A stretch of DNA of 64,000 nucleotides, taken from NCBI RefSeq assembly GCF_007954365.1, contig NZ_VOLO01000001.1:1116001-1180000 (forward strand). Direction: 5' to 3'. This stretch comes from Frigoribacterium sp. ACAM 257. Its GTDB lineage: Bacteria; Actinomycetota; Actinomycetes; Actinomycetales; Microbacteriaceae. The position numbers were made by a program, and so were the translations under genes. The notes under the pieces are model-generated. The model was not told where the DNA came from. It did not search any database and saw nothing but the letters and a program-made list of their open reading frames with translations. Positions 602 to 60,969 of the stretch are shown piece after piece. Each line of letters begins with the position of its first letter. The first letter of the stretch is position 1.

Positions 602-1942
602 ATGACGACGAGCGCATCGCAGCCGGCCCCCGACGATCGCGACGAGAGGGTCGACCTCGACGAGACGGCCGTCATCGCCCGCGACCTGATCCGCTTCGAC
701 ACCTCCAACTACGGCGGCGGCCGGTCCGAGGGCGAGGCCGATGCGGCCGAGTACGTCGCCGAGGCCCTCCGGGCGCTCGACCTCGAGCCGCAGCTGTTCG
801 AGTCCGAGCCGGGCCGCGTCAGCGTGGTCGCCCGGGTCGAGGGCGCCGACCGCGCCAAGCCGGGCCTCGTGGTCCACGGCCACCTCGACGTCGTCCCCGC
901 CGACCCGGCGAACTGGTCGGTCGACCCGTTCGCGGGCGTGGTGAAGGACGACATGCTCTGGGGCCGCGGCGCCGTGGACATGAAGAACATGGACGCGATG
1001 ATGCTGACGTCGCTCGGCGACATCGTCCGCTCCGGCGAGCGCCCCGCCCGCGACCTGGTCGTCGGCTTCTTCGCCGACGAGGAGGCCGGGGGAGTGCTCG
1101 GCTCGCACTTCCTCGTGAAGGAGCACCCCGAGCTCTTCGCCGGGGCGACCGAGGCCATCAGCGAGGTGGGCGGCTACTCGACCTACATCGACGGGCGTCG
1201 CTCGTACCTGCTGCAGACGGGCGAGAAGGCCCTCATCTGGATCACGCTCCGCACGCGCGGCACCGCGGGCCACGGCTCGCAGATGATCCGCGCGAACGCG
1301 GTGACCCGGCTCGCGGAGGCGGTCGCCGCGCTGGGCCGCCAGGAGTGGCCGATCGCGCTGACGGAGACGACGACTGCCCTGCTCCGCGAGGTGGCCCGCA
1401 TCCTCGACGTCGACGTGACGCAGACGGCGCCCGACGAGCTCGTGCTGCACACGGGCACGGCCCAGGGCTTCATCCGCGGCTCGCTCCGCACCACGACGAA
1501 CCCGACGATGCTGACGGCGGGCTACAAGCACAACGTCGTCCCCGACACGGCGGAGGCGCGGGTCGACATCCGCTGCATGCCCGGCCAGGAGGAGGCGGTC
1601 CTCGCCCAGGTGCGCGAGCTCGTCGGCGACGACGTCGAGATCGAGACGGTGCACACGGACATCGGGCTGGAGACGCCGTTCTCGGGCGACCTCGTCGAGG
1701 CGATCACGGCGACCCTTCAGCAGCACGACCCCGGCGCGCCCGTGCTGCCGTACCTGCTGTCGGGCGGCACCGACAACAAGGCGCTGAGCCTGCTGGGGAT
1801 CGCCGGCTACGGCTTCGCCCCGCTGCGCCTGGGGGAGGACATGGACTTCCCGGCCATGTTCCACGGGGTCGACGAGCGGGTCCCGCTCGACGCACTAGCC
1901 TTTGGCAGTCGCGTCCTCCGGGACCTCCTGGCGACCTACTGA
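602..1942 (+). CDS. M20/M25/M40 family metallopeptidase
   Basis: A 446-residue cytoplasmic zinc metallohydrolase of the ArgE/DapE/CPG2 type. The first metal-binding motif is HGHLDVVP, followed by GRGAVDMKN (bridging Asp) and the catalytic pair in FFADEEAGG. The central lid segment TRGTAGHGSQM and a C-terminal HGVDE complete the family pattern. Length is normal for the family. Substrate (N-acyl amino acid or dipeptide) cannot be read from sequence. I chose the ATG at 602 rather than the in-frame GTG at 593: TACCGT at 589-594 looks like a -10 box, which would put the transcript start at or next to this ATG (leaderless). uppP follows after 25 bp. Confidence 0.9.
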   Translation: MTTSASQPAPDDRDERVDLDETAVIARDLIRFDTSNYGGGRSEGEADAAEYVAEALRALDLEPQLFESEPGRVSVVARVEGADRAKPGLVVHGHLDVVPADPANWSVDPFAGVVKDDMLWGRGAVDMKNMDAMMLTSLGDIVRSGERPARDLVVGFFADEEAGGVLGSHFLVKEHPELFAGATEAISEVGGYSTYIDGRRSYLLQTGEKALIWITLRTRGTAGHGSQMIRANAVTRLAEAVAALGRQEWPIALTETTTALLREVARILDVDVTQTAPDELVLHTGTAQGFIRGSLRTTTNPTMLTAGYKHNVVPDTAEARVDIRCMPGQEEAVLAQVRELVGDDVEIETVHTDIGLETPFSGDLVEAITATLQQHDPGAPVLPYLLSGGTDNKALSLLGIAGYGFAPLRLGEDMDFPAMFHGVDERVPLDALAFGSRVLRDLLATY

Positions 1943-1967
1943 CACCCCCACCAGAAGGGCACCCCGC

Positions 1968-2810: not shown

Positions 2811-4066
2811 GGTCCTGGAACGCCCCCACCGTCCCCGTCCTGCCGGGCGACGCGCCGCTGCCGTCCCTCTGGGACACGGCCACCGCCTCCTTCGTGACGA
2901 CCCTCCCCGTCGACGGCGCGGCGACGCTGTACGTCTGCGGCATCACGCCCTACGACGCGACGCACCTCGGCCACGCGAGCACCTACCTCGCCTTCGACTC
3001 GCTCGTGCGCGTCTGGCGCGACGCGGGCCTCCGGGTGACCTACGCGCAGAACACGACCGACGTCGACGACCCGCTGCTCGAGCGCGCCACGGCGACCGGC
3101 GTCGACTGGCGCACCCTCGCGGCCTCGCAGACCGACCTGTTCCGCTCGGACATGGAGCACCTCGCGGTGGTCCCGCCCGAGCACTACGTCGCGGTGACCG
3201 ACGTCGTGGGCGACGTGGCAGACGCCGTCGCGGGCCTGATCGACTCGGGCGTCGCCTACCGGGTCGAGACCCCGGGCTCCGAGGCCGGCGACGACGTCTA
3301 CTTCGACGTCCGGGGCGCCGAGCGCGACACCTCCTGGCGCCTCGGCCTCGAGAGCCGCTACGACGCCGCCACGATGGCCCGCTTCTTCGCCGAGCGCGGG
3401 GGAGACCCCGACCGCGACGGCAAGCGCGACCCGCTCGACCCGCTGCTCTGGCGTGCCGCCCGTGCCGACGAGCCGTCCTGGCCGTCGTCGGTGGGCGCGG
3501 GCCGGCCCGGCTGGCACATCGAGTGCACGGTCATCGCCGAGCAGCACCTCGGCGCCGCCGCCACGGTCGCGGGCGGCGGCAGCGACCTGGTGTTCCCCCA
3601 CCACGAGATGAGCACGGCGCACGCGACGGCGATCACCGGCGAGCCGTCGGCCCGCCAGTGGGCGCACAGCGGGATGGTCGCCTACCAGGGCGAGAAGATG
3701 AGCAAGTCGCTCGGCAACCTCGTCAAGGTCAGCGAGCTCGTCTCCGCGGGTCACGACGCCCGTGCCGTCCGGCTCGCGATCACGGCGCACCACTGGCGGT
3801 CCGACTGGGAGTGGCTCGACGACGACCTCGTCGACGCCGAGCGCAGACTCGTCCGCTGGACGACGTGGGCGGACGGGGTCGGAGCACAGGAGGCGGGGGC
3901 CGGGACGACACCGCTGCTCGCGCTCCTTCGGGCAGCCCTCGCGGACGACCTCGACACGCCCAGGGCGATCCGGGCGGTGGACGACCACGTGGCCGCCGGG
4001 CGCACGGCGACCGCCGTCGACGTCGACGCGGTCGACGCGCTGCTCGGGATCGACCTCCGTCGCTGA
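2807..4066 (+). CDS. mshC: Cysteine--GlcN-Ins ligase MshC (mycothiol biosynthesis)
   Basis: A 419-residue ATP-dependent ligase joining cysteine to GlcN-inositol in mycothiol synthesis, the actinobacterial low-molecular-weight thiol pathway. It is a class I cysteinyl-tRNA-synthetase paralogue: the zinc Cys44 sits in LYVCGITPYD, the HIGH-like box is THLGHA (53-57), and GWHIECTVI carries further zinc ligands. KMSKS is intact in GEKMSKSLGN near residue 297. It lacks the tRNA anticodon-binding C-terminal part of CysS, and the length and the start of the protein match MshC rather than CysS. It starts with GTG inside the uppP stop codon (GTGA, 2807-2810), so translation is probably coupled. Confidence 0.95.
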   Translation: MRSWNAPTVPVLPGDAPLPSLWDTATASFVTTLPVDGAATLYVCGITPYDATHLGHASTYLAFDSLVRVWRDAGLRVTYAQNTTDVDDPLLERATATGVDWRTLAASQTDLFRSDMEHLAVVPPEHYVAVTDVVGDVADAVAGLIDSGVAYRVETPGSEAGDDVYFDVRGAERDTSWRLGLESRYDAATMARFFAERGGDPDRDGKRDPLDPLLWRAARADEPSWPSSVGAGRPGWHIECTVIAEQHLGAAATVAGGGSDLVFPHHEMSTAHATAITGEPSARQWAHSGMVAYQGEKMSKSLGNLVKVSELVSAGHDARAVRLAITAHHWRSDWEWLDDDLVDAERRLVRWTTWADGVGAQEAGAGTTPLLALLRAALADDLDTPRAIRAVDDHVAAGRTATAVDVDAVDALLGIDLRR

Positions 4067-9461: not shown

Positions 9462-11280
<1,819 letters not shown>

Positions 11281-12309: not shown

Positions 12310-13326
12310 GTGGCAGCCGTCCGCGCTCCGCGCATCCCCGTCGAGGAACGCCTCTTCAGCCTCGTCCTCGCCCTCCTCGCGACCGACGCCGGCCTGACGA
12401 AGACCGAAGTCCTCTCGACCGTCCAGGGCTACCGGCAGAAGTACCTCCCCGGCGGCGACAACGCGGCCCTCGAGCGACAGTTCGAGCGCGACAAAGACGA
12501 CATCCGCGAGCTCGGGGTGCCGCTCGAGACCGTCGACGACCCCTCCGCTGCCGGTGACAACCACCTCCTGCGCTATCGCATCCTCCGCGGCGACTACGAG
12601 CTCCCGCTCGACATCTCGTTCTCGCCGGAGGAGACGGCGCTACTCACGCTCGCCGGCATGGTCTGGCGCGAGGGCACGCTCTCGGCCGAGTCTCGCCGCG
12701 CGCTGCTCAAGCTGCGGTCCCTGGGAGGCGCGACGAACGTCCCCGAGCTCGCCTACGCCCCGCGCGTGCGCAGCCGCGACGCCGCGTTCGAGCCCCTGCG
12801 GACCGCACTCGACCGCGGCGTGGTGGTCCGCTTCGACTACCTGAAACCGGGCGAGGCGGCGCCCCGTCGACGCGAGGTCGCGCCGTTCGCCCTCGTCCAG
12901 CACCAGGGCCGCTGGATGGTGTCCGTCGTCGAGCCCGAGACGTCGTCCCGCAAGAACTTCCTCCTGTCCCGCATCGTCGGCCCGGTGACGGTCACCGCGA
13001 AGACGTTCCCGCGGCCCGCCGACGCCACCGCCGACTCGACGCTCGAGGGCCTCGACCGGCTCTGGGAGCAGAACACGGCCACCGTCCGCGCCGCCCCCGA
13101 CTCGGACGCCCGCACGCGCCTGAGCGCGCGACGCGGCACCGTCGCGGGCGACGACGACCTGCTGCTGGTGCACTACAGCGACCGTCAGGTCCTGGCCGAG
13201 GAGCTCACCTCGTTCGGGCCCGAGGTGGTCGTCCAGGCACCCGCCGAGCTGCGCGACCTGGTGGCCTCGCGCCTCCGTGACCTCGCCGCCGACCACGCCG
13301 CCACCGCAGGGGGAGCAGTCTCGTGA
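12310..13326 (+). CDS. pafB: PafB, WYL-domain transcriptional regulator
   Basis: A 338-residue HTH-WYL protein. It has an N-terminal winged helix (about 10-95), a central WYL domain (about 145-240) with VVRFDYLKPGEAAPRRREVAPFA and RWMVSV, and a C-terminal WCX extension. In mycobacteria PafB and PafC form a heterodimer that activates the LexA-independent DNA-damage regulon with RNA polymerase; the name comes from the pafA operon, not from pupylation activity. The stop overlaps the pafC start by GTGA, as in the classical operon. A -10-like TAGGAT just upstream suggests its own promoter. Confidence 0.93.
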   Translation: MAAVRAPRIPVEERLFSLVLALLATDAGLTKTEVLSTVQGYRQKYLPGGDNAALERQFERDKDDIRELGVPLETVDDPSAAGDNHLLRYRILRGDYELPLDISFSPEETALLTLAGMVWREGTLSAESRRALLKLRSLGGATNVPELAYAPRVRSRDAAFEPLRTALDRGVVVRFDYLKPGEAAPRRREVAPFALVQHQGRWMVSVVEPETSSRKNFLLSRIVGPVTVTAKTFPRPADATADSTLEGLDRLWEQNTATVRAAPDSDARTRLSARRGTVAGDDDLLLVHYSDRQVLAEELTSFGPEVVVQAPAELRDLVASRLRDLAADHAATAGGAVS

Positions 13327-14297
13327 CCGACCGACGACCCGCCCTGCACGCGACCGACAAGCTCGCGTTCCTGCTGTCGCTCGTGCCCTGGCTGATCGAC
13401 CACGAGCGGGTCAGCGTCGCGGAGGCCGCCTCCCACTTCGGCGTCGGCGTGGCCGACATCCGCCGCGCGGTCGAGCTGATCGCGGTCTCGGGCATCCCGG
13501 GCGACACGGCGCAGTACCAGCACGCCGACCTGTTCGACATCGCGTGGGACGACTTCGAGCAGAACGACGTCATCGTGCTCACGAACCTCGTCGCCATCGA
13601 CGACACGCCCCGTTTCTCGGCACGCGAGGCCGCCGCCCTGATCGCGGGCCTCCAGTACCTCTCGGCGCTGCCCGAGAACGCCGACAGGGGCGCCGTCGCC
13701 TCGCTCATGTCGAAGCTGTCGCGAGGCGCGTCGGGAGAGCCCAGCCAGGTCGCCGTGGCGCAGCAGGGGACGAGCGAGGTGCTGGCCCTCGTCCGTGACG
13801 CCGTCGAGCGCGGGGTGCAGCTCGAGTTCGACTACGCGGGGGTGCGCGGCCTCGTCGAGCGCCGCCGTGTCGACCCCCTCAGGGTCGAGTCCCTCGACGC
13901 CGACTGGTACCTGCGCGGCTGGGACCACCTGAGGGAGGCGCTCCGCACCTTCCGCCTCGACCGCATCGCCTCGCCTGCCCTCACCGACGCCCGCATCACG
14001 CACCGCGCCTCCGACCTCTCGCTGCCCGACACGCTCTTCGAGGGCTCTCCGGACGACCTCGACGTCGTCGTCGAGATCGACGAGGCCGCGGCGCCGCTGC
14101 TGGACGACTACCGGCCGGCCGACGTCGAGGACGCGGGGGAGGGTCGCACCCGCCTCACCCTCCGGGTAGGCCACGTGGGGACGGTCGCCCGTCTCGTCAG
14201 CGGGCTCCCCGGCCGCGCCCGCGTCGTCGCGCCGGACGAGGCACGTCGCGCCGTCGCCAGCTGGGCCGCCGAGGCCGCCGCCCGCTACGACGTCTGA
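13323..14297 (+). CDS. pafC: PafC, WYL-domain transcriptional regulator
   Basis: A 324-residue partner of PafB with the same order: helix-turn-helix (about 12-90, TDKLAFLLSLVPWLIDHE at the start), WYL domain (about 155-235, with VQLEFDYAGVRG and DADWYLRGWD) and C-terminal WCX domain. Starts with GTG inside the pafB stop (13323-13326), so the two are translated in coupled fashion, consistent with an obligate heterodimer. tatA and tatC follow, the same order as in Mycobacterium (pafB-pafC-tatA-tatC-helY). Confidence 0.93.
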   Translation: MTDRRPALHATDKLAFLLSLVPWLIDHERVSVAEAASHFGVGVADIRRAVELIAVSGIPGDTAQYQHADLFDIAWDDFEQNDVIVLTNLVAIDDTPRFSAREAAALIAGLQYLSALPENADRGAVASLMSKLSRGASGEPSQVAVAQQGTSEVLALVRDAVERGVQLEFDYAGVRGLVERRRVDPLRVESLDADWYLRGWDHLREALRTFRLDRIASPALTDARITHRASDLSLPDTLFEGSPDDLDVVVEIDEAAAPLLDDYRPADVEDAGEGRTRLTLRVGHVGTVARLVSGLPGRARVVAPDEARRAVASWAAEAAARYDV

Positions 14298-15512: not shown

Positions 15513-18035
15513 ATGACCAGCAGCGACCTCAGCCCGGCCGCCCGCTTCGCCGCGTCGAAGAACCGCGTCCGCACGCCGCAGCTGCAGTCGTTCCGGTCAC
15601 GTCTCGGCTTCTCACTCGACCCGTTCCAGGAGGCGGCCTGCGCCTCCGTCGAAGAAGGCTCGAGCGTCCTCGTCGCCGCGCCCACGGGTGCGGGCAAGAC
15701 GCTGGTCGCCGAGTTCGCCATCCACCTCGCGATGCAGCACCCCCGCGACAAGGTCTTCTACACCGCGCCCATGAAGGCGCTGAGCAACCAGAAGTTCCAA
15801 GAGCTCGTGGCCGAGTACGGGGCGTCCGAGGTCGGTCTCCTCACCGGCGACACCAACGTCAACTCGCGCGCCCGCATCGTCGTGATGACGACCGAGGTGC
15901 TCCGCAACATGATCTACGCCGGCTCCGAGATGCTCGACGACCTCCGCTACGTCGTCCTCGACGAGGTGCACTTCCTGGCCGACCGCTTCCGGGGCGCCGT
16001 CTGGGAAGAAGTGATCATCCACCTCCCGCTCGACGTCCGGCTCATCTCGCTCAGCGCCACCGTGTCGAACGCCGAGGAGTTCGGCGACTGGCTGCAGACC
16101 GTGCGCGGCGGCACCGACGTGATCGTCTCCGAAGATCGCCCGGTGCCCCTCGACCAGCACGTCCTCGTCGGGGGCAAGTTCCTCGACCTGTTCGACTCGA
16201 GCGGGCAGGCGGCGACCAACCGCGTCAACCCCGAGCTGCTGCGGGCCACGTCGCTGTCGAGACGAGGAGGCGGCAGCCGGCGCGAGCGCGGCGGTCGCGA
16301 CGGTTTCTCGGGCCGCGGCCCGCGCGGACACGTCGTGCCGCCGACGCAGCACGCCCAGGGTCGCCTCGACCGCTGGAAGATCGTCGAGATGCTCGACGAC
16401 CAGAACCTGCTCCCGGCCATCTTCTTCGTCTTCAGCCGGGTCGGCTGCGACCAGGCCGTGAAGCAGGTGCTGCGCTCGGGCATCCGCCTCACCACCGCCG
16501 ACCAGCGCCAGGAGATCCGCGAGATCGTCGAGGCCCGGTGCCGCACCCTGCGCGACGAAGACCTCGCGGTGCTCGGGTACTGGCAGTGGCTCGACGGGCT
16601 CGAGCGCGGGGTCGCGGCGCACCACGCCGGCCTGCTGCCCGCCTTCAAGGAGGTGGTGGAGGAGCTGTTCCAGAAGAAGCTCGTCAAGGTCGTCTTCGCC
16701 ACCGAGACCCTGGCGCTCGGCATCAACATGCCAGCGCGCACGGTCGTGCTCGAGAAGCTCGAGAAGTTCAACGGCGAGGCCCGTGTGCCGATCACGCCGG
16801 GGGAGTACACGCAGCTGACCGGCCGCGCCGGCCGCCGGGGCATCGACGTCGAGGGCCACTCGCTGATCCAGTGGCAGCAGGGCCTCGACCCGCAGGCGGT
16901 CGCGAGCCTCGCCTCCCGACGCACCTACCCGATGAACTCCAGCTTCCGCCCGACCTACAACATGGCGGTCAACCTGATCGAGCAGTTCGGCCGGTCACGC
17001 ACCCGCGAGGTGCTCGAGACGTCGTTCGCCCAGTTCCAGGCCGACCGCGCCGTCGTCGACCTCGCCCGCAAGGTCCGGACGCAGCAGGAGAGCCTCGACG
17101 GCTACGCCCGCAGCATGCAGTGCCACCTGGGCGACTTCGGCGAGTACACCACGATCCGTCGCGAGCTCGGCGACCTCGAGAAGCAGGGCGCGGCGAGAGC
17201 GGACGCGCAGTCGCGGGCCGAGCACGACAAGCGCCAGCGGCACCTCGCCGACCTTCGTCGTCGCCTGCGGCAGCACCCCTGCCACGCCTGCCCCGAGCGC
17301 GAGCAGCACGCCCGCTGGTCCGAGCGCTGGTGGAAGCTCAAGAAGCAGACCGACCAGCTCTCCGCCCAGATCCGCGGCCGCACCGGCGCCGTCGCCAAGG
17401 TCTTCGACCGCGTCACCGACGTCCTCCTCGACCGCGGATACCTCGAGCCGTCCGTGCCCCGTTCCTCCACGTCCGGAGCGGCAGCGCCCGGCTCCTCGCG
17501 ACGAGGCGGCGACCGCACGGCCGAGGTCGCCGTGACGGCGACCGGACGCACCCTCCGGCGCATCTACGGCGACCGGGACCTGCTCGTCGCCGAGAGCCTG
17601 CGACTCGGGCTCTGGGACGAGCTCGACGTGCCGTCGATGGCAGCCATGGCCGCCACGCTCGTCTACGAGCCCCGCCGCGACGAAGGGCAGCTCAGCGAGC
17701 GGTTCCTGCCCCGTGGCGCCTACCGCGAGGCGCTCGACGAGACGCAGAAGCTGTGGGCCGAGCTCGACGACCTCGAACAGGAGCACCGGCTGCCGGGCAG
17801 CAACCCGCCGGCCCCCGGACTCGCACTGGCCATGCACCGCTGGGCCAGGGGAGCAGATCTCGACTCGGTCCTCGAGGACGCAGAGCTCGCGGCGGGCGAC
17901 TTCGTCCGCTGGACCAAGCAGACCATCGACCTGCTCGACCAGTTGTCCGTCGTCGCCGACCTGCCTGTCGGTCCGGTCGCGCGCAGGGCCCTCGACGCCG
18001 TACGGCGCGGGATCGTCTCCTACTCGGCGGTCTGA
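15513..18035 (+). CDS. helY: HelY/Mtr4-like DEVH-box superfamily 2 RNA helicase
   Basis: An 840-residue ATP-dependent helicase of the Ski2/Mtr4 group. Walker A is APTGAGKT (56-63), motif Ia is TAPMKALSNQKF, motif II is DEVH (150-153), motif III is LSATVSN, and motif VI is YTQLTGRAGRRG. A long insertion with RGGGSRRERGGRDG (about 255) is Arg/Gly-rich and probably RNA-binding. The C-terminal part has CHACPEREQHARW and a DSHCT-like helical domain. The family acts in RNA turnover. Its place after tatAC matches mycobacterial helY. Length is a little short of the usual 900 residues. Confidence 0.92.
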   Translation: MTSSDLSPAARFAASKNRVRTPQLQSFRSRLGFSLDPFQEAACASVEEGSSVLVAAPTGAGKTLVAEFAIHLAMQHPRDKVFYTAPMKALSNQKFQELVAEYGASEVGLLTGDTNVNSRARIVVMTTEVLRNMIYAGSEMLDDLRYVVLDEVHFLADRFRGAVWEEVIIHLPLDVRLISLSATVSNAEEFGDWLQTVRGGTDVIVSEDRPVPLDQHVLVGGKFLDLFDSSGQAATNRVNPELLRATSLSRRGGGSRRERGGRDGFSGRGPRGHVVPPTQHAQGRLDRWKIVEMLDDQNLLPAIFFVFSRVGCDQAVKQVLRSGIRLTTADQRQEIREIVEARCRTLRDEDLAVLGYWQWLDGLERGVAAHHAGLLPAFKEVVEELFQKKLVKVVFATETLALGINMPARTVVLEKLEKFNGEARVPITPGEYTQLTGRAGRRGIDVEGHSLIQWQQGLDPQAVASLASRRTYPMNSSFRPTYNMAVNLIEQFGRSRTREVLETSFAQFQADRAVVDLARKVRTQQESLDGYARSMQCHLGDFGEYTTIRRELGDLEKQGAARADAQSRAEHDKRQRHLADLRRRLRQHPCHACPEREQHARWSERWWKLKKQTDQLSAQIRGRTGAVAKVFDRVTDVLLDRGYLEPSVPRSSTSGAAAPGSSRRGGDRTAEVAVTATGRTLRRIYGDRDLLVAESLRLGLWDELDVPSMAAMAATLVYEPRRDEGQLSERFLPRGAYREALDETQKLWAELDDLEQEHRLPGSNPPAPGLALAMHRWARGADLDSVLEDAELAAGDFVRWTKQTIDLLDQLSVVADLPVGPVARRALDAVRRGIVSYSAV

Positions 18036-18112: not shown

Positions 18113-19780
18113 GTGCCCCTCCGCGTGACCGACTTCCGCCTGCCGCTCTGGGTGGCCGTCCTCGTGGCGGCCGGGGCCGGGGTCGTCCTCGACGCGGGCT
18201 TCCCCGACGGCGACGTCTGGCCTCTCGCGTTCGTCGGGATCGCCCTCGTGCTCGTGTCGCTCCGCGGCCGTCGAGCCGGGGGAGCGTTCCTCGTGGGCCT
18301 CGTCGCCGGGCTGTCCTTCTACCTCGTCCACATCTTCTGGGCGACGCTCTACCTCGGCCTGCTCCCCTGGATCGCGCTCTCGACCCTCGAGGCGCTCTTC
18401 TTCGGCGGGGGAGCGGTGCTCATCACCCTCGCCTACCGCTGGGTGCCCCGTGTCTGGCCCGGACTCGTGGGCCAGGCCGTCGCCGTCCCGGTCGTCGTCG
18501 CCGGCCTCTGGACGCTCCGCGAGTTCGTCGCGGGCAACTGGCCCTACGGCGGCTTCGCCTGGGGCCGCATGGCCTTGAGCCAGTCGCAGAGCCCGTTCGC
18601 CGGGCTCGTCGCCTGGGTCGGCATCTCGGGCCTGACCTTCCTGATGGTCGCGCTCGTGGCGGCCCTCGTCCAGCTCGCGCTGATGGTGACGCTGCCCCGC
18701 GCGACGCGGCTGCTCGCGGCCGCGATCGCCGTGGTGGCCGTCCTCGCCGTCCCCGCCTGGCCGACGTCGTCGAGCGGCACCGCCCGGATCGCCGGCGTGC
18801 AGGGCAACGGGCCGGCCGGCTACTTCGACGAGCGCGAGCAGGGCGACCTGCTCAACTCGCAAGTGCTCGCGATGAGCGGCCTCCAGCCCGGCGACGACCT
18901 CGACCTCGTCGTCTGGCCTGAGGGCGGCAGCGACCGCGATCCCACCCGTGATGCCTACGGCCGCTACGTCTTCGACGCGATCACCACCGGCTACGACGCG
19001 CCGCTCCTCTCCGGCGTCATCACGCAGAGCGACGACGGCGAGACCGTCTGGAACTCCTCGATCCTCTGGGACGACGGCGAGGTGCAGGGCCAGTACGACA
19101 AGAAGCACCCGATCCCGTTCGGCGAGTACGTGCCCGATCGCTCCTTCTGGCGCCCGTTCGCGCCCGACCTCATTGACCTCATCGCCCGCGACTACACGCC
19201 GGGCACGCGACCCGAGGCGATGACGATCGGCGACTTCACCGCCGGCATCTCGATCTGCTTCGACATCGTCGACGACCAGCTCGTCACGAACATGATGCGT
19301 GACGGCGCCCAGGTGATCATCGCGCAGACCAACAACGCCGACTTCGGCGACACCGACGAGAACGCCCAGCAGCTCGCGATCGCCCGGCTGCGGGCCATCG
19401 AGACGGCGCGCCCGGTCGTCAACGTCTCGACCATCGCCTCCAGCCGGGTCATCGACGCTCGCGGAGAGATCGTCGCGGGCGTCCAGGACTTCACGGCCGG
19501 CACCATGGTGCACACGGTCGATCTCGGCACCGGGACGACGCCCGCGGTCGTCGACAGCCGGGCGATCGAGCTGTTCGTCTCGTTCCTCGGGCTCGCCCTG
19601 CTGGTCCTCTCTCGCGTGCTGATCGGCGGTCGTCGGAGCCGACGCCGCCGCCTCCTCACCTCGGCTCCGTGGGCCGAGCTCACCACGCCCCTGCTGGCCG
19701 CCGAGAAGCCCGTGGCCCTCGAGGACGAGCTGGACGACCCCGATCAGTTCGACTCGGTGCGGCGTGGCCGCCGCCGCTGA
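18113..19780 (+). CDS. lnt: Apolipoprotein N-acyltransferase Lnt
   Basis: A 555-residue membrane enzyme that adds the third acyl chain to lipoprotein N-terminal cysteines. Residues 1-225 hold about six membrane helices. The nitrilase domain (about 230-480) has the catalytic triad: Glu in VVWPEGGS, Lys in GQYDKKHPIPFGEY, and Cys in AGISICFDIVDD. A last membrane segment follows near 490-510 with a basic tail. Substrates in this window include CtaC and the FKBP-like lipoprotein; LspA, acting one step earlier, is encoded at 52501-53142. It converges on rbpA. Confidence 0.93.
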   Translation: MPLRVTDFRLPLWVAVLVAAGAGVVLDAGFPDGDVWPLAFVGIALVLVSLRGRRAGGAFLVGLVAGLSFYLVHIFWATLYLGLLPWIALSTLEALFFGGGAVLITLAYRWVPRVWPGLVGQAVAVPVVVAGLWTLREFVAGNWPYGGFAWGRMALSQSQSPFAGLVAWVGISGLTFLMVALVAALVQLALMVTLPRATRLLAAAIAVVAVLAVPAWPTSSSGTARIAGVQGNGPAGYFDEREQGDLLNSQVLAMSGLQPGDDLDLVVWPEGGSDRDPTRDAYGRYVFDAITTGYDAPLLSGVITQSDDGETVWNSSILWDDGEVQGQYDKKHPIPFGEYVPDRSFWRPFAPDLIDLIARDYTPGTRPEAMTIGDFTAGISICFDIVDDQLVTNMMRDGAQVIIAQTNNADFGDTDENAQQLAIARLRAIETARPVVNVSTIASSRVIDARGEIVAGVQDFTAGTMVHTVDLGTGTTPAVVDSRAIELFVSFLGLALLVLSRVLIGGRRSRRRRLLTSAPWAELTTPLLAAEKPVALEDELDDPDQFDSVRRGRRR

Positions 19781-19880: not shown

Positions 19881-19915
19881 GGTGGGGGAGCGGGCCAGAA
19901 CTCGTGGGGCGAGCC

Positions 19916-21159: not shown

Positions 21160-22277
21160 TAGGGAGCTGCCGGGGGAGCGGTGGGCGGCACGTCCGTGCT
21201 GCCGTCCGACGACGTCGTGTCGGCGGCCCCCTGCGCGCCTGCCCCCGGGAGGTCGCCGGCTCCGGGGCGCGTGACCGTGGGAAAGCCGAGGTCGGGCTCG
21301 CTGCCGAGGTCGACCGTGGTCGCGAGGTCGGGCGTCTGCTCGGTCTCGGACACCTTCGTCGTGCCGCGATCGACCCAGCCGGGCGCCGACGGGTCCTTCG
21401 GGGCGAAGAACCCCGAGCCGATGCCCTTGAGCGCCTCGGTGAGCTCGCTCGGGATGATCCAGAGCTTGTTCGCCGAGCCCTCGGCCAGCTTCGGCAGGGT
21501 CTGGAGGTACTGGTAGGCGAGCAGCTTGGGGTCGGGGTCGCCCAGGTGGATCGCGTTGAAGACGGTGTCGATGGCCTCGGCCTCGCCCTGCGCACGCAGG
21601 ACCTGGGCCCGAGCCTCGCCCTCGGCGCGGAGGATGGCGGACTGGCGCGACCCCTCGGCCTCCAGGATCTGCGACTGCTTCGTGCCCTCGGCGGTGAGGA
21701 TCGCGGCACGACGGTTGCGCTCGGCACGCATCTGCTGCTCCATCGAGTCCTGGATGGAGAGGGGCGGGTCGATGGCCTTGAGCTCGACTCGCCCGACGCG
21801 GATGCCCCACTTGCCGGTGGCCTCGTCGAGGACGATGCGGAGCTGGCCGTTGATGTTGTCGCGGCTCGTCAGGGCCTCTTCGAGGTTGAGCCCGCCGACG
21901 ACGTTGCGGAGGGTCGTCGTGGTCAGCTGCTCGACCGCACCGAGGTAGTTGGCGATCTCGTAGGTGGCCGCACGGGCGTCCGTCACCTGGAAGTAGACGA
22001 CCGTGTCGATCGACACCACCAGGTTGTCCTCCGTGATGACCGGCTGCGGCGGGAACGAGACGACCTGCTCGCGCATGTCGATCAGCGGTCGGACCCGATC
22101 GATGAACGGGACGAGCAGGTTGAGCCCCGGCAGGAGGGTCTTGTGGTACTTGCCGAGCCGCTCGACGACGCCGGCGCTGGCCTGCGGGATGATCCGCACG
22201 GCTCGGAACAGCACGACGAGCACGAAGACGACGACGACTGCGACGACGACGACGGTCACGATGGTGGTGGGGTCCAT
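21159..22277 (-). CDS. SPFH/Band 7 membrane protein (stomatin/QmcA-like)
   Basis: A 372-residue protein anchored by one N-terminal helix (about 5-25), followed by the SPFH domain (about 28-190, ASAGVVERLGKYHKTLLPG, then VISIDTVVYFQVTD-type strands) and an Ala/Glu-rich coiled coil (RAEGEARAQVLRAQGEAEA). The C-terminal 70 residues are Pro/Gly/Ala-rich and disordered. Such proteins form membrane-associated rings in lipid microdomains; a partner NfeD protein is encoded 11 bp upstream, the usual arrangement. ATG 22277 is preceded by GGGAC at a reasonable distance. Confidence 0.92.
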   Translation of the reverse strand: MDPTTIVTVVVVAVVVVFVLVVLFRAVRIIPQASAGVVERLGKYHKTLLPGLNLLVPFIDRVRPLIDMREQVVSFPPQPVITEDNLVVSIDTVVYFQVTDARAATYEIANYLGAVEQLTTTTLRNVVGGLNLEEALTSRDNINGQLRIVLDEATGKWGIRVGRVELKAIDPPLSIQDSMEQQMRAERNRRAAILTAEGTKQSQILEAEGSRQSAILRAEGEARAQVLRAQGEAEAIDTVFNAIHLGDPDPKLLAYQYLQTLPKLAEGSANKLWIIPSELTEALKGIGSGFFAPKDPSAPGWVDRGTTKVSETEQTPDLATTVDLGSEPDLGFPTVTRPGAGDLPGAGAQGAADTTSSDGSTDVPPTAPPAAP

Positions 22278-22288: not shown

Positions 22289-22753
22289 TCAGGCGGGGAC
22301 GACCAGGGCGGTCGACCCCTCGATGGCGGTGACGACGACCGGCGCACCGGTGTCGAGGACGATCCCGGCCGACGCCGGGGGAGAGGGGAGGAGGCGGGCG
22401 GTCCACGTCTCGCCGTTGGCGAGCTTCACCTGGCCCCCGTCCACCCCGATCGGCACGACGACGGTGCCGCGGATGCCCATGAGGGCCGCGAGGTTGCTCG
22501 GCGTGGGATCGCCGCCCTTGCCGAGGGCGCGCAACAAGGGGGGACGGACGGTGAAGAGCAACAGCACGGCGATGAGCCCCGCGACGATCACCTGGAGCCA
22601 CCACGGCGCCCCGAAGAGGCCGGCGAGCAGGCCGCCCACGCTGCCGATGGCGAGCATGAGGAACGTGAGCTCGAGCGTCGTCACCTCGATCACGACGAAG
22701 ACGAGGAGCAGCCCGATCCAGATCAGCCACGCCCACTGGGTGACGACGTCCAC
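22289..22753 (-). CDS. NfeD-like membrane protein
   Basis: A 154-residue short NfeD without the ClpP-like protease domain. It has about three or four membrane helices (8-75) followed by a small OB-fold domain (about 90-150: LMGIRGTVVVPIG, GQVKLANGETWTARL, PVVVTAIEGSTALVV). Short NfeD proteins partner SPFH proteins, as here. The GTG at 22753 has GGAGG five bases upstream. The operon NfeD-SPFH-GDPD runs leftward, divergent from the SDR gene. Confidence 0.9.
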   Translation of the reverse strand: MDVVTQWAWLIWIGLLLVFVVIEVTTLELTFLMLAIGSVGGLLAGLFGAPWWLQVIVAGLIAVLLLFTVRPPLLRALGKGGDPTPSNLAALMGIRGTVVVPIGVDGGQVKLANGETWTARLLPSPPASAGIVLDTGAPVVVTAIEGSTALVVPA

Positions 22754-28516: not shown

Positions 28517-29518
<1,002 letters not shown>

Positions 29519-42267: not shown

Positions 42268-43683
42268 TCAGCTCCGGGCGTCGAGGCGGGCGATCAGCAC
42301 GGCCTCGCTGAGCACGGCACGGTGCAGCACGCCGAGGTGCTGCGACTCGTTCGGGCTGTGCGCACGCGTGTCGGGGTCCTCCACGCCGGTGACGAGGATC
42401 TGGGCCTCGGGGAACGTCCGGACGAGGTCGGCGATGAAGGGGATCGAGCCGCCGATGCCGATCTGCAGGGGCGCCTCCCCCCAGGCCTCTGTCATGGCCG
42501 CGGTGGCCTCGGCGAGGGCCCAGCCGCTCGTGTCGACGAGGAACGGGTCGCCCTCGTCGACGTCGTCGATCTCGACGTGCGCGCCGAAGGGCGCGTGCTC
42601 GCGGAGGTGCGCCTCGATGGCCGTGTAGGCCTCGGACGCGGCCTGCCCCGGAGCGATGCGCGCGCTGATCCGGACGGACACCTCGGGCGACAGCGTGTTC
42701 GACGCGTTGGCGACGCTCGGGGCGTCGATGCCCGTGACCGTGATCGACGGCTGCGACCAGACGCGGCTGAGGAGCGGGCCCGTGCCGATGGGCGTCACGC
42801 CCTCGAGCAGCCCGGCCTCCTCGCGCAGCTGCTGCTCGCTCTGCTCGGGGTGCTCGGCCTCGCGGCTGCGCAGCCCGGCGACGGCGACGCTGCCCGCGTC
42901 GTCGTGCAGGGTGGCGAGCAGCTTCACCATCGCGAGCATCGCGTCCGGGACCGCGCCGCCGACCATCCCCGAGTGGGACGCGTGCGCCAGGGTGCGGACG
43001 GTCAGGCGGAACGTCACGTTGCCGCGGAGTCCGACGGTGATCGCGGGGACGGTCGTGCTCCAGTTGCCCGAGTCGGCGACGACGATGACGTCGGCCGCGA
43101 GGTCGTCGCGGTGCTGGCGGAGGAAGTCGGCGAACGAGCGGGAGCCGAACTCCTCCTCCCCCTCGATGAACACCGCGACGCCGACGCCCAGGTCGTCGCC
43201 GAGCACCTCGCGGACGGCCCGCAGCGCCGCCACGTGGGTCATCACGCCGGCCTTGTCGTCGGAGGCGCCTCGCCCGTAGAGGCGATCGCCCTTGACGGTG
43301 GGCTCGAACGGAGGCGAGTCCCAGTCGGCGTCGTCGCCCTGCGGCTGCACGTCGTGGTGGGCGTAGAGGAGGACCGTCGGCTTGCCGTCGCGCGCGGGGC
43401 GCCGGGCGAGCACGGCCGGCTGGCCGAGGGCGCCGGTGTCGCCGATCGGGGCACGGCTCACCTGGACCGTCTCGAAGAGGCCCGTGCCCCGCACGAGCTC
43501 GGCGACGGCCTCGGCGCTGGCGGCGACGTGCGCGGGGTCGAAGGCGTCCCAGGAGACGGACGGGATGCGCACCAGGCCGCCGAGGTCGGCGACGGCGGCG
43601 GGGAAGCCGCCCTGCACCGCCTCCGCGAGTTCGCTGACAGTACGAGGATCGGTCGGGGTCACGGGGTGCTGCGAGTCGGTCAT
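42268..43683 (-). CDS. M20 family dipeptidase
   Basis: A 471-residue zinc peptidase of the carnosinase/PepV-like branch of M20. Metal-binding motif YAHHDVQPQGD, bridging residue in GRGASDDKAG, catalytic Glu in FIEGEEEFGS, metal Asp in VVADSGNW, and the lid segment LAHASHSGMVGGAVPD. C-terminal HSPNESQHL holds the last His. Length and motifs separate it from the shorter M20 peptidase at 602-1942. ATG 43683; divergent from the DUF3043 gene. Confidence 0.92.
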   Translation of the reverse strand: MTDSQHPVTPTDPRTVSELAEAVQGGFPAAVADLGGLVRIPSVSWDAFDPAHVAASAEAVAELVRGTGLFETVQVSRAPIGDTGALGQPAVLARRPARDGKPTVLLYAHHDVQPQGDDADWDSPPFEPTVKGDRLYGRGASDDKAGVMTHVAALRAVREVLGDDLGVGVAVFIEGEEEFGSRSFADFLRQHRDDLAADVIVVADSGNWSTTVPAITVGLRGNVTFRLTVRTLAHASHSGMVGGAVPDAMLAMVKLLATLHDDAGSVAVAGLRSREAEHPEQSEQQLREEAGLLEGVTPIGTGPLLSRVWSQPSITVTGIDAPSVANASNTLSPEVSVRISARIAPGQAASEAYTAIEAHLREHAPFGAHVEIDDVDEGDPFLVDTSGWALAEATAAMTEAWGEAPLQIGIGGSIPFIADLVRTFPEAQILVTGVEDPDTRAHSPNESQHLGVLHRAVLSEAVLIARLDARS

Positions 43684-44384: not shown

Positions 44385-45428
44385 TCAGGCTGTTCGGCGG
44401 AGGGCGCGCAGCCCTCGGTTGACCTTGCGGGCCCAGAGCGGCCCCTCGTAGAGGAAGGCCGTGTAGCCCTGCACGAGCGTGGCGCCGGCGTCGAGGCGCG
44501 CCTGCACGTCGGCCGCGCTCGTCACGCCCCCGACGGACACGACGCACGTCTCGTCGGGCAGCACCGAGCGCAGCACGCGCAGCACCTCGATCGACCGGGC
44601 CGCGAGCGGGGCGCCCGAGAGACCACCGGCGCCCGCGGCCTCGACGACGCCGGGCGGGGTCTGCAGCCCCGACCGGGAGAGGGTCGTGTTCGTCGCGATC
44701 ACTCCCCCGAGCCCGATCTCGGTGACGAGCTCGGCGATGTGGCGGATGCCGTCGTCGTCGAGGTCGGGAGCGATCTTGACGAGCACGGGGGTGTCGCCCG
44801 CGGCGGCGTGGACGGCGCGCAGCAACGGCGACAGCTTGTCAAGCTCTTGCAGGCCGCGGAGACCGGGCGTGTTGGGGGAGCTGACGTTGACGGCCAGGTA
44901 GTCGGCGAGCGGGGCGAGCAGTCGCGTGCTGTCGAGGTAGTCGTCGACCGCGTCGTCGACCTCGACCACACGGCTCTTGCCGATGTTGACGCCGATCACC
45001 GGCCTGCCCGAGGCACGTCGCGCGCTGGTGAGCTCGTCGGCCGCCTGAGCCGCGCCTCCGTTGTTGAAGCCCATGCGGTTGACGACCGCCAGGTCGGGCA
45101 CCAGGCGGAACAGCCTGGGTCGCTCGTTGCCGGGCTGGGCCCTGGCCGTGATCGTGCCGACCTCGACGTGGCCGAAGCCGAGCGCCCCGAGACCGGCGAT
45201 GCCCGTGGCGTCCTTGTCGAAGCCTGCGGCGACGCCGAACGGCGACGCGAACCGGAGTCCGAGGGCGTCGACGGCCAGCGACGAGTGCGGCGCCGTGAAG
45301 CGGCGCACCAGCGGCGCGAGGCCGACCCGAGGGACGGCGCGGATGACCCGGGAGGCGAGGTGGTGAGCGTCCTCGGGGTCCATCTTCGAGAGCACCAGGT
45401 CGAAGAGGACCCGGTAGGGGGTCCTCAC
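44385..45428 (-). CDS. pyrD: Dihydroorotate dehydrogenase (quinone) PyrD, class 2
   Basis: A 347-residue FMN enzyme of pyrimidine synthesis. The N-terminal helices ([20 protein letters not shown]) form the membrane-associated quinone tunnel of class 2. FMN-site motifs are [36 protein letters not shown] (catalytic Ser class) and [20 protein letters not shown]. The GTG at 45428 overlaps the nrdR stop by GTGA. Confidence 0.95.
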
Positions 45429-47317: not shown

Positions 47318-47403
47318 GGCCCGTCGAGCCTAGCCCGAGCCGTCGCGGCGCGGGCGCGGCCGCTCCCCCGGCAGCAGCAGAGCACAGGAGGCGCCCACCC
47401 GTC

Positions 47404-51580: not shown

Positions 51581-52504
51581 CTAGGCGGCACGGAGGACAT
51601 CGAGAGCGTGCTGCAGGTCGTCGGGGTAGGTCGACCTGTAGACGACGGGCTCGCCGGTGCCCGGGTGCCGGAAGCCGAGCTGGACGGCGTGCAGCCACTG
51701 CCTCCCGAGGCCGAGGGCGGCCGAGAGCGTCGGATCGGCGCCGTAGGTCGCGTCGCCCACGCACGGGTGCCGCTGCGCCGCCATGTGGACGCGGATCTGG
51801 TGCGTGCGCCCGGTCTCGAGGTGGATCTCGAGCAGCGAGGCCGAGCGGAACGCCTCGACGGTCTCGTAGTGCGTCACCGAGGGCTTGCCGTCGACGACGA
51901 CGGCGAACTTCCAGTCCGACGAGGGATGCCGGCCGATCGGCGCGTCGATCGTGCCGGTGAGGGGGTCGGGGTGCCCCTGCACGACGGCGTTGTAGATCTT
52001 CTCCACGGTGCGCTCGCGGAAGGCGTCCTTGAGCTGCGCGTAGGCGCGCTCGGACTTCGCCACGACCATCAGGCCACTGGTGCCGACGTCGAGACGGTGC
52101 ACGATCCCCGCACGCTCGGCGGCGCCCGACGTCGCCACCTGGAACCCGGCCGCGGCGAGGCCGCCGAGCACGGTCGGCCCGGTCCAGCCGACGGAGGGGT
52201 GGGCGGCGACGCCGACCGGCTTGTCGACGACGACGATCTCGTCGTCGTCGTGCACGATGCCGAGGCCGGGCACGTCGAGCGGCACCACGGTGGGAGCTTC
52301 ACGCGGCGACCAGGTGACCTCGAGCCAGGCGCCGGCCTCGAGCCGGTCGGACTTGCCCACGGGGCGACCGTCGACGGCCACTCCCCCGGAGCTCGCCACC
52401 TCGGCGGCGAAGGTGCGGCTGAAGCCGAGGAGCTTCGCGAGGGCGGCGTCGACCCGCTCGCCTGCGAGGCCGTCGGGAACGGGGAGCTGGCGGGACTCGC
52501 TCAC
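51581..52504 (-). CDS. rluD: Pseudouridine synthase RluD family
   Basis: A 307-residue enzyme of the RluA/RluD family. An N-terminal S4 RNA-binding domain (about 12-70) precedes the catalytic domain; the catalytic Asp is in [13 protein letters not shown], with [12 protein letters not shown] as another signature. It probably makes pseudouridines in 23S rRNA helix 69; the exact site is inferred from family length and motifs. It overlaps the lspA stop by 4 bp. Confidence 0.92.
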
Positions 52505-57111: not shown

Positions 57112-58296
57112 TCACCGGGTCCGGATGATGCCGTTGTCCGGCGCGGACACGTCGAACTCGACGGACGCGGCCGGGTCGCGCCTCGCCTGGTCGGCGATGA
57201 GCCCGGCGAGCACCTGCGCCTTCTCCGCCGAGTCGTCCGCGCTCCCCCAGACCACGCGCTCACCGGTCGAGAGCGACAGCGTGACGTCGTCCGCGGTGGA
57301 GGCGGTCGCCGAGTCGACCGTCTGGCGCAGCGCCTGCGGCAGTGCCAGCAAGACCTCGGCGGTGGAGCGGAACGCCGTCCCGTCCAGGGGGGCGCCGCCC
57401 ACGTCGACGAGCGGGACTCCCTCCTGACGATCGTCGAGGCGCTGGACGACGACGCCGGCAGGGTCGACGAGGTCGAAGCCGTCGCCGGAGGACACCGTCG
57501 CGATCGGCTGACGCTCGGTCACCCGGATAACGAGGGTGTGCGGCGGCGCCGTCTCCGTGACGTAGCTCGCGATGAGGGGGAACTGCTCCAGCTCGGTCGT
57601 GATGCGCTCGAAGTCGATCCTCGCCAGCGGGGTGCCGAGCTGTCCGGACACCGCGGCCTGCACCTCCACGGCGTCCACACGGGCGGTCCCCTCGACCTCG
57701 ATCTGCTCGAGCGAGAGGAGCGGCGAGAACACGGCGACGGCGACCGACGACCCGAGCAGCACGGCGACGGCACCTGCCGTGACCCACGCGGCGCGCCTGT
57801 GACGCGACCGCCTGGTGAAGCGCCTGACCTCGATCCGCTCCGAGCGCCTGCGCTCGCCCGAGGCGCGGCGTGCGGCGCGACGCGCCTCTGCGGCGCGCCG
57901 ACGAGCGGCCTCGGCGCCTCCGGCGGGCTCGATGCGCGGAGTGTCGCCGGCGCTCGTCGCCCCCGGTCCGACGGGGACTTCGGGCCCGGCCTCGGACCGG
58001 TCAGTCGTCGGCGCCGCCCCGCGAGGGGCGAATCGGGAAGCGACCCCCGAGACGACGCGCGAGGCCGGACCCGGCGCGACGGACGACGGCAGCGGCACCG
58101 GCCCGGTCGGCGTGTCGTCACCAGGACCCGAGACGACGTGCTCGGAGGCAGGATCACGGCCCGGCTCGGCTCGCGACCGGCGGGGCCTCGCCGCGGCCAG
58201 CCGGTCGCGCAGGGACGACGGACGTGCCGCCTCCTCGTGCTGTCCGATGCCCTCGGAGCCCTCGGCGGACGGGTCGAAGCCCTCCGGGCGCCTCAC
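57112..58296 (-). CDS. ftsQ: Cell division protein FtsQ
   Basis: A 394-residue bitopic divisome protein. The N-terminal 168 residues are Ala/Arg/Pro-rich and probably disordered, with a basic cluster before one membrane helix (about 169-190). A POTRA domain follows (LSLEQIEVEGTARVDAVEV) and then the FtsQ beta domain (about 265-390). Long cytoplasmic regions are common in actinobacterial FtsQ. GTG start at 58296, 37 bp after the murC stop. Confidence 0.92.
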   Translation of the reverse strand: MRRPEGFDPSAEGSEGIGQHEEAARPSSLRDRLAAARPRRSRAEPGRDPASEHVVSGPGDDTPTGPVPLPSSVAPGPASRVVSGVASRFAPRGAAPTTDRSEAGPEVPVGPGATSAGDTPRIEPAGGAEAARRRAAEARRAARRASGERRRSERIEVRRFTRRSRHRRAAWVTAGAVAVLLGSSVAVAVFSPLLSLEQIEVEGTARVDAVEVQAAVSGQLGTPLARIDFERITTELEQFPLIASYVTETAPPHTLVIRVTERQPIATVSSGDGFDLVDPAGVVVQRLDDRQEGVPLVDVGGAPLDGTAFRSTAEVLLALPQALRQTVDSATASTADDVTLSLSTGERVVWGSADDSAEKAQVLAGLIADQARRDPAASVEFDVSAPDNGIIRTR

Positions 58297-58333: not shown

Positions 58334-59764
58334 TCACTCCCCGGACTCCTCCGCGGTCGAAGCGTCCGGCGCCGACGCGGCGTCGAGCGACCCGAGCAGC
58401 TGCGGCACGATGCGGTAGACGTCGCCGCAGCCGAGAGTGATGACGAAGTCGCCGTCGCGCGCGACGGCTGCGGTCCGGTCGGCGGCAGCCTGCCAGTCGG
58501 CGACGAAGTCGACCCGCGAGGCGTCGGCGAATCGATCGGAGACGAGAGCCCCGGTGACCCCGGGCTCGGGGTCCTCGCGAGCCCCGTAGACGTCGAGCAC
58601 GATCGTGTGGTCGGCCAGGCGCTCGTAGGTCTCGGCGAACTCGCCCGCCATCATGCGGGTCCGGCTGTACAGGTGGGGCTGGTGCACTGCGATGAGGCGC
58701 CCGCCGCCGACGACGGACCGCGCGGCCTGGAGAGCGGCGGCGACCTCGGTGGGGTGGTGGGCGTAGTCGTCGTAGACGCTCACGCCGCGGACCGTGCCGT
58801 GCAGCTCGAACCGCCGCTCGGTGCCCCCGAACGTCTCGAGCCCCGCGACGGCGGCCTCCGGGTCGACGCCGAGGCCGACGAGCACGGCGAAGGCCCCCGT
58901 CGCGTTGACGGCGTTGTGGTGTCCGGGAACGCGGAGCTGGACGGGCCAGCTGACGCCCGCGTGGTGCAGCGTGAACGACACCGGGCCCGACGGGGCGACG
59001 TCGGAGAGGCGGACGTCCGCAGACTCGTCCTCCCCGAAGGTGACGACGTGCGGGTGCGTGAGCGCTGCCGTGACGCGACGCGCGCCGGCGTCGTCGGACG
59101 ACACGACGACGAGCTCGCGGGCAGCGGAGGCGAAGTCGACGAAGGCGGCGTCGAAGGCCTCGTGCGAGCCGTAGTGGTCGAGGTGGTCGGCGTCCACGTT
59201 CGTGATGAGCGCCACCGACGTGTCGTAGAGCAGGAACGAGCCGTCCGACTCGTCTGCCTCGACCACGAAGAGGTCGTCCGAGCCGCCCTGCGCGCTGACG
59301 CCGAGCGACTGGATGACACCGCCGTTGACGAAGCTCGGGTCGTGGCCCGCCGCGAGGAGGGCCGTGACGACCATGCCGGTCGACGTCGTCTTGCCGTGCG
59401 CGCCGGCGACGGAGACCAGACGGTGCTGGCCGATCAGCCAGGCCAGCGCCTGCGACCGGTGGAGCACGGGCAGCCCGCGCTCGAGCGCGAGCTGGTACTC
59501 GGGGTTGTCCTGCCAGAGAGCACCCGTGACGACGAGGGTGTCCGCATCGCCCACGTTGGCCGCGTCGTGGCCGATGGCGATCTCGGCGCCGAGCTCGCGG
59601 AGGGCGGCGACCCCGGCCGTCTCCCGGATGTCGGAGCCGGTCACGGTGTGGCCGGCCGCGAGGAAGACGCGCGCGATGCCGCTCATCCCTGAGCCGCCGA
59701 TGCCGACGAAGTGCACTCGGCCGAGCTCGGCCGGGATCTGCTGCTGGAGGTCGGGCTTGATCAT
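58334..59764 (-). CDS. murC: UDP-N-acetylmuramate--L-alanine ligase MurC
   Basis: A 476-residue ATP-dependent Mur ligase. N-terminal UDP-binding [16 protein letters not shown]-loop [10 protein letters not shown], central [15 protein letters not shown], and C-terminal [10 protein letters not shown]. Adds the first peptide residue to UDP-MurNAc. The ATG at 59764 overlaps the murG stop by ATGA. Length is typical. Confidence 0.96.
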
Positions 59765-60969
59765 GAGCGCTCGGGGCTCGCCTTCTCGGTCTGGTCGTCG
59801 GTGCGGTCGGTGCTGTCCGTGCGGCGGGTGCTCGCGGTGCGGGACGAGGCATGCCGCTGGGTGCGCGCCGGCACGTCGCGGTCGGCACGGGAGCGCCCCT
59901 CTCGTACGGCCTCGCGGACCAGCTCGACGGTGCGGTCGGTCCCGTCCAGCACGCCGACGGTGCCCGCCCGGACAGCCATCTCGGCGATGGCGGCCCGGTC
60001 CTGCAGGAGACTCACGAGCGTGGAGCGCACCCAGTCGGGCGTGAAGTCGGCGTCCGCGACGAGCAGCGCTCCCCCGGCCGCCACGACGTCGGTGGCGTTG
60101 TGGCGCTGCTCGCCGTTGCCGACGGGGTACGGCACGAGGACGGAGGCCAGGCCGAGGGCCGTCAGCTCGCTGACGGTCGCCGAGCCGGCCCGCGAGACCA
60201 CGAGGTCGGCCGCGGAGAGCGCCAGGTCCATCCGGTCGCAGTACGGAAGGAGGTGGTGGTCGGCGAGGCCAGTCGAGCGCAGCTCGGACTTCTGGCCCGT
60301 CACGTGCAGGATCTGCCAGCCGGCGCCGAGCACGCTCGTCGCGGACCGGGCGATGGTCTCGTTCAGGCGCCGCGCACCCGACGAGCCTCCGGTGACCAGC
60401 AACGTCGGCTTGCGGGGGTCGAGGCCGAACTCGACCAGCGCCTCCTGCCGGCTCTCCCTGCGGTCGAGCTGCTCGATCTCGCGACGCAGCGGCATGCCGA
60501 CCTGACGGCCGTGTCGGAGCCGGGTCGACCGGTGGACGACGCCGACGTGACGTGTGAACCACGACCCGAGCACGTTCGCGATGCCCGGCTTGGCGTTCGC
60601 CTCGTGCACGACGAGCGGGACGTGCGAGCGCCAGGCCGCGACGTAGGCGGGCGCCGACGCGTAGCCGCCGAAGCCCACGACGACGTCGACGTCGTGCTGG
60701 TCGAGCAGCTCGCGCACGCCGGCGACGGCCCCGCGGAGCGCTGCGGGGAACGTGAGGGCGGCGCGGGAGGGGCGGCGAGGGAAAGGCAGGCGGGGCACGG
60801 TGAGCAGCTCGTAGCCGCGCAGGGGGACGAGGCGCGCCTCGAGTCCCTCGACCGTGCCGAGCACCAGGACGGTCGAGTCGGGCTCGGTGTCGCGGATCCG
60901 GTCGGCGACCGCGAGCAGGGGGTTCACGTGCCCGGCGGTGCCGCCGCCGGCGAGGAGGTACGTCGTCAC
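59761..60969 (-). CDS. murG: UDP-GlcNAc transferase MurG (lipid II synthesis)
   Basis: A 402-residue peripheral membrane glycosyltransferase. N-terminal glycine loop [18 protein letters not shown], acceptor-site [17 protein letters not shown] and [11 protein letters not shown], donor-site [13 protein letters not shown] and [33 protein letters not shown]. The C-terminal 45 residues are Arg/Thr/Ser-rich and variable. GTG 60969 overlaps the ftsW stop. Confidence 0.96.

Follow-up and report, generated by a model that had tools for sequence, protein, structure and literature searches.

Sister chromosomes are finally separated at dif, and in Escherichia coli the FtsK orienting polar sequence (KOPS) GGGNAGGG points toward that site. 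The word of Lactococcus FtsK is GAAGAAG. Chi, another G-rich octamer of E. coli, is biased toward the leading strand and is read by RecBCD. The B. subtilis SRS is GAGAAGGG (PMC9764985). Closest to the present case are the octamers (T/C)GGGGGAG and G(A/T/C)GGGGGA, which five Corynebacterium genome papers describe as architecture imparting sequences (AIMS) and use to locate dif; one of them terms the octamers actinobacterial, and the C. aurimucosum paper counts 856 on the leading and 61 on the lagging strand and cites Hendrickson & Lawrence 2006 as their source. Here we analyse the heptamer GGGGGAG, and the octamer CGGGGGAG that contains it, in 64,000 nucleotides around dif of Frigoribacterium sp. 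ACAM 257 (hereafter the window; contig NZ_VOLO01000001.1, positions 1,116,001 to 1,180,000). The motif is already in print as AIMS and is not new. We found that its copies face dif from both sides throughout the DNA sampled, without help from base skew or gene direction, and that wrong-way copies are nearly absent. It is probably the actinobacterial form of KOPS, with CGGGGGAG as the best word and T as the next best base in front.

A one-way word facing dif from both sides

A scan of the window returned exactly 15 copies of GGGGGAG and 16 of CTCCCCC, and these match every one of the 31 positions that an initial annotation had read by eye. The dif site, the site of XerCD recombination, is a 28-mer (GGCGCTGATAATGCACATTATGTCAGGT, core ATAATGCACATTATGTCA; 24177..24204, + strand). 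To its left lie 14 GGGGGAG and no CTCCCCC, and to its right 16 CTCCCCC and one GGGGGAG, a split of 30:1 toward dif (two-sided binomial chance about 3e-8; ratios here and below are copies toward dif to copies away from it). The reversal that the annotation had placed at its dif candidate, at 24.2 kb, is indeed found there: the sites at 23818 and 24710, within the last octamer on the left (23817..23824, +) and the first on the right (24710..24717, -), flank dif, which lies within the interval where polarity switches.

The window comes from a genome of 3.33 Mb in 14 contigs, of which we sampled 1.15 Mb including the window; unless stated otherwise, host counts come from 560 kb of contig C6, split at dif and oriented by it (the window being C6:1116001-1180000). 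In this sample GGGGGAG scores 166:12 and CGGGGGAG 121:1, each heading its list when words are ranked by strand skew (6,616 heptamers and 20,233 octamers with skew, respectively), and among heptamers free of overlap with the motif the best reaches 253:130. CGGGGGAG is also nearly one-way in sampled stretches of contigs C7 and C8 (26:2 and 17:0 between the two directions, the order of contigs being not known). With the contigs of the whole genome taken as they lie, GGGGGAG occurs 627 times forward and 221 times in reverse, against 359 and 370 for its mirror.

Base composition does not account for this pattern. The strand that points to dif carries no excess of G over C (199,250 vs 203,510), so that GC skew is near zero and runs slightly the wrong way; the mirror heptamer GAGGGGG scores 64:58, and the remaining 55 orderings of the eight letters of CGGGGGAG sum to 1890:1936. 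Leading-strand G bias, which the initial annotation had named among the findings that would refute its proposal, is ruled out as the cause by these G counts and same-letter controls, as is a mutation bias in G runs.

The same holds for gene direction. With a crude open reading frame (ORF) caller, by which 78% of the C6 sample was called, CGGGGGAG scores 54:0 where genes are directed at dif, 30:1 where they are directed away from it and 37:0 in uncalled DNA, which rules out gene orientation as the cause; right-way copies per 100 kb number 19.0, 19.3 and, elsewhere, 30.7. Ten relatives (described below) give 72:0 in co-directional genes, 43:0 in opposed genes and 39:0 in uncalled DNA. The caller does err, having picked + strand ORFs at 20.4-22.3 kb where Pfam supports a minus-strand GDPD gene, which blurs the gene classes, but wrong-way copies are nearly absent from each of them however they are drawn. 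The initial annotation had likewise held that transcription does not explain the polarity, citing seven sites in genes transcribed against the replichore, and its conclusion stands. Pfam matches bear out three of them: 25225 (25225..25231, -), a clean case within the part of a + strand ORF that matches GTP cyclohydrolase I; 26428 (26428..26434, -), in a + strand ORF that matches RibD_C, the site lying a few codons ahead of the match; and 21172, in a minus-strand ORF (20368-22347) with a GDPD match, again before the matched stretch. A fourth, 25471, lies in a + strand gene according to the crude caller, and 22377, 24710 and 30463 lie in uncalled DNA. A modest density rise toward the terminus, which the annotation had proposed as a ranking criterion, is suggested by the counts: right-way heptamers per 20 kb number 9.4 in the window against 5.5 in the rest of the C6 sample (p 0.01), density and position correlate over 19 left-arm blocks (rank correlation 0.46, p 0.05), and the 20-kb block at dnaA has zero copies.

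We scanned CGGGGGAG by substitution in the C6 sample. Any change at positions 3-7 abolishes the skew, leaving near-equal counts both ways, as do C or T at position 2; the position-2 A variant CAGGGGAG leans toward dif (10:3 here, 16:1 in the relatives). Perhaps this one-base variant is a second, weaker version of the word. At position 1 C is favoured, followed by T and A (T 21:2, A 15:5, G 9:4), and at position 8 G is favoured, the other bases still leaning the same way (C 23:9, T 10:2, A 6:0). Skew is weaker for GGGGGA[ACT] (86:43). In the ten relatives the base before GGGGGAG is C in 154:0, T in 34:0, A in 17:0 and G in 7:0. The octamer CGGGGGAG, and not the heptamer, is the sharpest form, T being the second choice for its first base. 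Words known from other lineages were also tried and rejected as the polar word here: GGGNAGGG shows no polarity in the C6 sample (63:60; 40:27 in the ten relatives), the B. subtilis SRS scores 17:9 and GAAGAAG 81:80. As a control of the method, 50 kb either side of dif in E. coli K-12 gave 13:0 for GGGNAGGG and 3:1 for GGGGGAG.

The remaining copies in the window all face dif save one. On the left arm (+ strand), matches to the octamer CGGGGGAG stand at 1087..1094, 3397..3404, 14134..14141, 16798..16805, 18277..18284, 18406..18413, 21171..21178, 22376..22383 and 23406..23413, and matches to the heptamer at 1831..1837, 11124..11130, 13309..13315 and 19884..19890. On the right arm (- strand), octamers stand at 25471..25478, 27615..27622, 29227..29234, 37776..37783, 44702..44709, 47363..47370, 52381..52388 and 60069..60076, and heptamers at 30463..30469, 33206..33212, 42475..42481, 43156..43162 and 57242..57248. 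The sole wrong-way heptamer of the window, at 44874..44880 (+), sits in the octamer TGGGGGAG. The site 23817-23824 falls in the Gly-rich stretch of a NUDIX-domain ORF (22774-24150, +), so that at this place the motif can arise from protein coding as well. Between 34000 and 42000, where genes for cytochrome c and a COX1 oxidase lie, G+C falls to 0.65-0.67, and the sole heptamer in this stretch (37776) faces dif.

Microbacteriaceae and the wider phylum

All 13 named Microbacteriaceae genomes searched contain the dif pattern ATAATNNNNATTATGTCA with at most one mismatch. Seven of the 13 (G283, G285, G287, G288, G290, G291 and G293) have two to four such dif-like matches each; Xer sites belonging to plasmids or integrated elements, or chance, may account for the additional ones. 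Taking the place with the core sequence of the window where there were several, we sampled 20 kb on each side of dif in ten of the 13 genomes, 400 kb in total (G289, G293 and G287, the last lacking any match that carries the usual core, fall outside this sample). All ten are fully polar, with 212:0 for GGGGGAG and 154:0 for CGGGGGAG. In the window and in every relative the nearest sites on either side lie 215 to 1,830 bp from dif, which confines the switch to 0.8-2.9 kb containing dif; the switch interval thus holds dif in all 11 genomes, the host and the ten named relatives.

Individual sites are conserved to very different degrees. VKM Ac-2836 is identical at 1/13 aligned CGGGGGAG sites (control orderings 6/119) and has 9 sites of its own in the aligned DNA, Leaf186 at 1/13 (15/122; 9 own), Leaf263 at 7/12 (15/115; 7 own) and F. 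faeni at 7/11 (50/123; 7 own). The corresponding figures are 1/8 for Frondihabitans (controls 10/76), 2/9 for Curtobacterium (11/78), 2/5 for Amnibacterium (2/34), 2/4 for Clavibacter (1/10), 1/4 for Leifsonia (1/23) and 0/5 for Microbacterium (1/30). With so mixed an outcome and such small numbers we do not take site-by-site conservation as a sign of selection; it is orientation that is kept in every genome. VKM Ac-2836 and Leaf186 have zero wrong-way sites within 20 kb of dif. That sites are gained or lost while those present face one way is what we take as the best evidence for selection on direction.

Polarity likely extends beyond the family. CGGGGGAG is more frequent than its mirror in all 98 genomes of a class-wide draw (median ratio 2.7), in 57 of 60 of an order-wide draw (median 2.5, the other three at 0.82-0.96) and in 117 of 132 outside the class (median 1.55). 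Enrichment over the mirror is a poor stand-in for polarity, since G069 (0.83) and G071 (0.63) still show some polarity. Among single-contig genomes, whose arms were fitted to the data so that the ratios are flattering, GGGGGAG scores 35:5 in G055 (rank 3 of 2,118 heptamers, with the flip between the stretches flanking its dif), 32:6 in G069 (rank 40 of 2,758), 26:5 in G071 (rank 307 of 3,864, running with GC skew) and 151:53 in G011 (rank 35 of 3,881, with words of a repeat array ranking ahead of it and GC skew again running alongside). G216 has eight sites in all, and G022 shows no clear orientation. The G011 array, about 146 copies of several overlapping words in 20 kb (L240; G011:C1:1665001-1685000), has the look of a very long repeat array, perhaps CRISPR. 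In another genome (G117:C1:48679-48908) CGGGGGAG occurs seven times, for the most part in 30-bp steps and on a single strand, as a tandem repeat carrying the polar word.

FtsK and other candidate readers

The host genome encodes one FtsK gamma domain (PF09397, E 5.5e-23), and the protein is nearest, among the named genomes, to those of Frigoribacterium (best segment 93% for F. faeni and 86% for VKM Ac-2836). One XerD scores over the cut-off; a second tyrosine recombinase match, below it, is presumably XerC. An FtsK with a gamma winged helix, a Xer recombinase and dif, as expected where KOPS operates, are accordingly all found in this genome. In an alignment with gamma domains of solved structure, the recognition helix is FAKAGRLMDLME here, YNRAARIIEQME in E. 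coli and YNRAARMIEAME in 2j5o/2ve8, which we take to be Pseudomonas aeruginosa gamma domains. Residues S766, Q769 and N777 are named as key for KOPS reading in PMC9764985, and PMC2680272 lists R1300, E1303 and E1306 for E. coli; we mapped the former set onto the 2ve8 sequence, whose spacing it fits. Across an alignment of 37 rows (the host, seven other Microbacteriaceae and 29 further genomes, out of 110 relatives' loci), the equivalents of S766, Q769, R1300 and E1306 never vary, every row has Asp at the position of E1303, and over 90% have Ala at that of N777. The helix is FAKAGR in 80 of 80 named Microbacteriaceae loci, and in the 29 of 30 further genomes that could be read the position is Ala, Ser or Thr, and Asn in none. 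This lack of Asn in the recognition helix may be why the word of the lineage differs from GGGNAGGG. Within the phylum no correlation of helix type with motif was seen among the few genomes compared: FAKAGR (G055), FARAGR (G071) and YARAGR (G069), one genome each, show the same lean, and YSRAGR belongs to G011 with its 151:53 and GC skew.

The initial annotation had likened the motif to a KOPS that guides FtsK; its dif-pointing polarity beyond composition and transcription is borne out, and guidance of FtsK is to our reading the best explanation. The gamma domains would bind the G-rich strand of the motif, and the motor would load on one side and pump DNA 5' to 3' along that strand to dif. There FtsK would activate XerC/XerD, so that dimers are resolved and segregation is finished, and selection would remove copies that send FtsK away from dif. 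Several points weigh against this account. The skews of GGGGGA[ACT] and CAGGGGAG leave the exact word read by the protein unsettled, the density gradient toward dif is modest, and beyond the Microbacteriaceae the heptamer is polar without being the top word (see the four ranks above). The Asn contrast, moreover, is a single phylogenetic comparison of one phylum with two proteobacteria, SpoIIIE and the Lactococcus FtsK standing outside it, and the literature searched, as far as its text was available, held no binding, loading or translocation data for the word. A search that left most of the listed papers unopened yielded nothing that ties the word to the FtsK of Actinomycetota; papers on mycobacterial FtsK (PMC13277299) and C. 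glutamicum FtsK (PMC11898615) mention KOPS, and the accessible text of the two contains no words beginning with GGG.

Of the alternatives, the one that survives best is that the motif is a selected polar sequence serving a factor other than FtsK, for example in terminus-directed replication, in repair or in an SMC-related role. The Corynebacterium papers, in the parts at hand, call the octamers architecture imparting sequences only, and the corresponding text of the C. aurimucosum paper carries no mention of FtsK. We nevertheless consider such a reader unlikely: the switch falls within the 0.8-2.9 kb holding dif, the required end point of FtsK, in all 11 genomes, and with the E. coli FtsK word unpolarised here no other word comes near the motif in the ranking. 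Less probable still is that the motif acts as a recombination hotspot of the Chi type, following the leading strand and read by a helicase-nuclease. E. coli Chi has the same G-rich octameric form and strand bias, but RecC (PF04257) has no match in the host genome (AdnAB, the other candidate reader, was not searched for), and we reject a Chi read by RecBCD on that ground. The C. resistens paper further describes corynebacteria as without a recBCD pathway, yet they carry the same motif. Finally, we see next to no prospect that strand-specific mutation, GC skew, codon use or the orientation of genes yields the polarity as a by-product. GC skew does accompany it in G071 and G011, but in the host G is not above C toward dif, the mirror word and the sum of the other orderings are balanced, and polarity is alike in all gene classes.

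Words of the KOPS type give bacterial chromosomes their organisation and restrict both inversions and gene transfer close to the terminus. Scoring 154:0 within 20 kb of dif in ten genomes, the present word offers a sharp and cheap marker of dif and of arm orientation in Microbacteriaceae drafts. The joint change of word and gamma domain also makes DNA reading by FtsK testable with one protein and a few oligonucleotides (CGGGGGAG, CAGGGGAG, GAGGGGGC and GGGCAGGG). A broader proposal, which we advance tentatively and regard as rather doubtful, is that CGGGGGAG serves as KOPS throughout the phylum Actinomycetota and that its difference from GGGNAGGG is set by the one recognition-helix position at which Pseudomonas and E. 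coli have Asn and the proteins read here have Ala, Ser or Thr; the thinner evidence for polarity beyond the Microbacteriaceae lowers its odds. If it is true, word and helix residue would form a readable DNA code, testable by a single residue swap.

Comparison with described polar sequences

The nearest described system is the AIMS of Corynebacterium, with which the present case shares the octamers themselves, their leading-strand polarity and their use for finding dif. Bias to one strand and reversal at dif are both found here: (T/C)GGGGGAG scores 142:3 and G(A/T/C)GGGGGA 91:13 in the C6 sample, and the two together, overlaps counted, 233:16 in the 560 kb of the host and 293:9 in the 400 kb of the ten relatives. 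The difference lies in the family, which is another one, and in what is added here, namely the substitution scan, the gene and same-letter controls and the gamma-domain comparison. The KOPS of E. coli is alike in being a G-rich, non-palindromic word of ~8 bp that runs 5' to 3' toward dif, switches at dif and goes with an FtsK bearing a gamma domain. The host has such a dif-ward, non-palindromic word, independent of base skew and, by the crude ORF caller, of gene direction. It is unlike in that GGGNAGGG is unpolarised here, a consensus that is in any case not common to all known KOPS, and in that we only infer the binding of FtsK to the host's word. The B. subtilis SRS and the Lactococcus word, neither of them strongly polar here, illustrate that the word of FtsK/SpoIIIE varies between lineages. 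E. coli Chi is likewise a polar G-rich octamer, unlike in being read by RecBCD. Set beside these systems, the feature is real, strong and ordinary in kind: a known actinobacterial polar octamer that, judged from sequence comparisons, is most likely the FtsK guide of this lineage.

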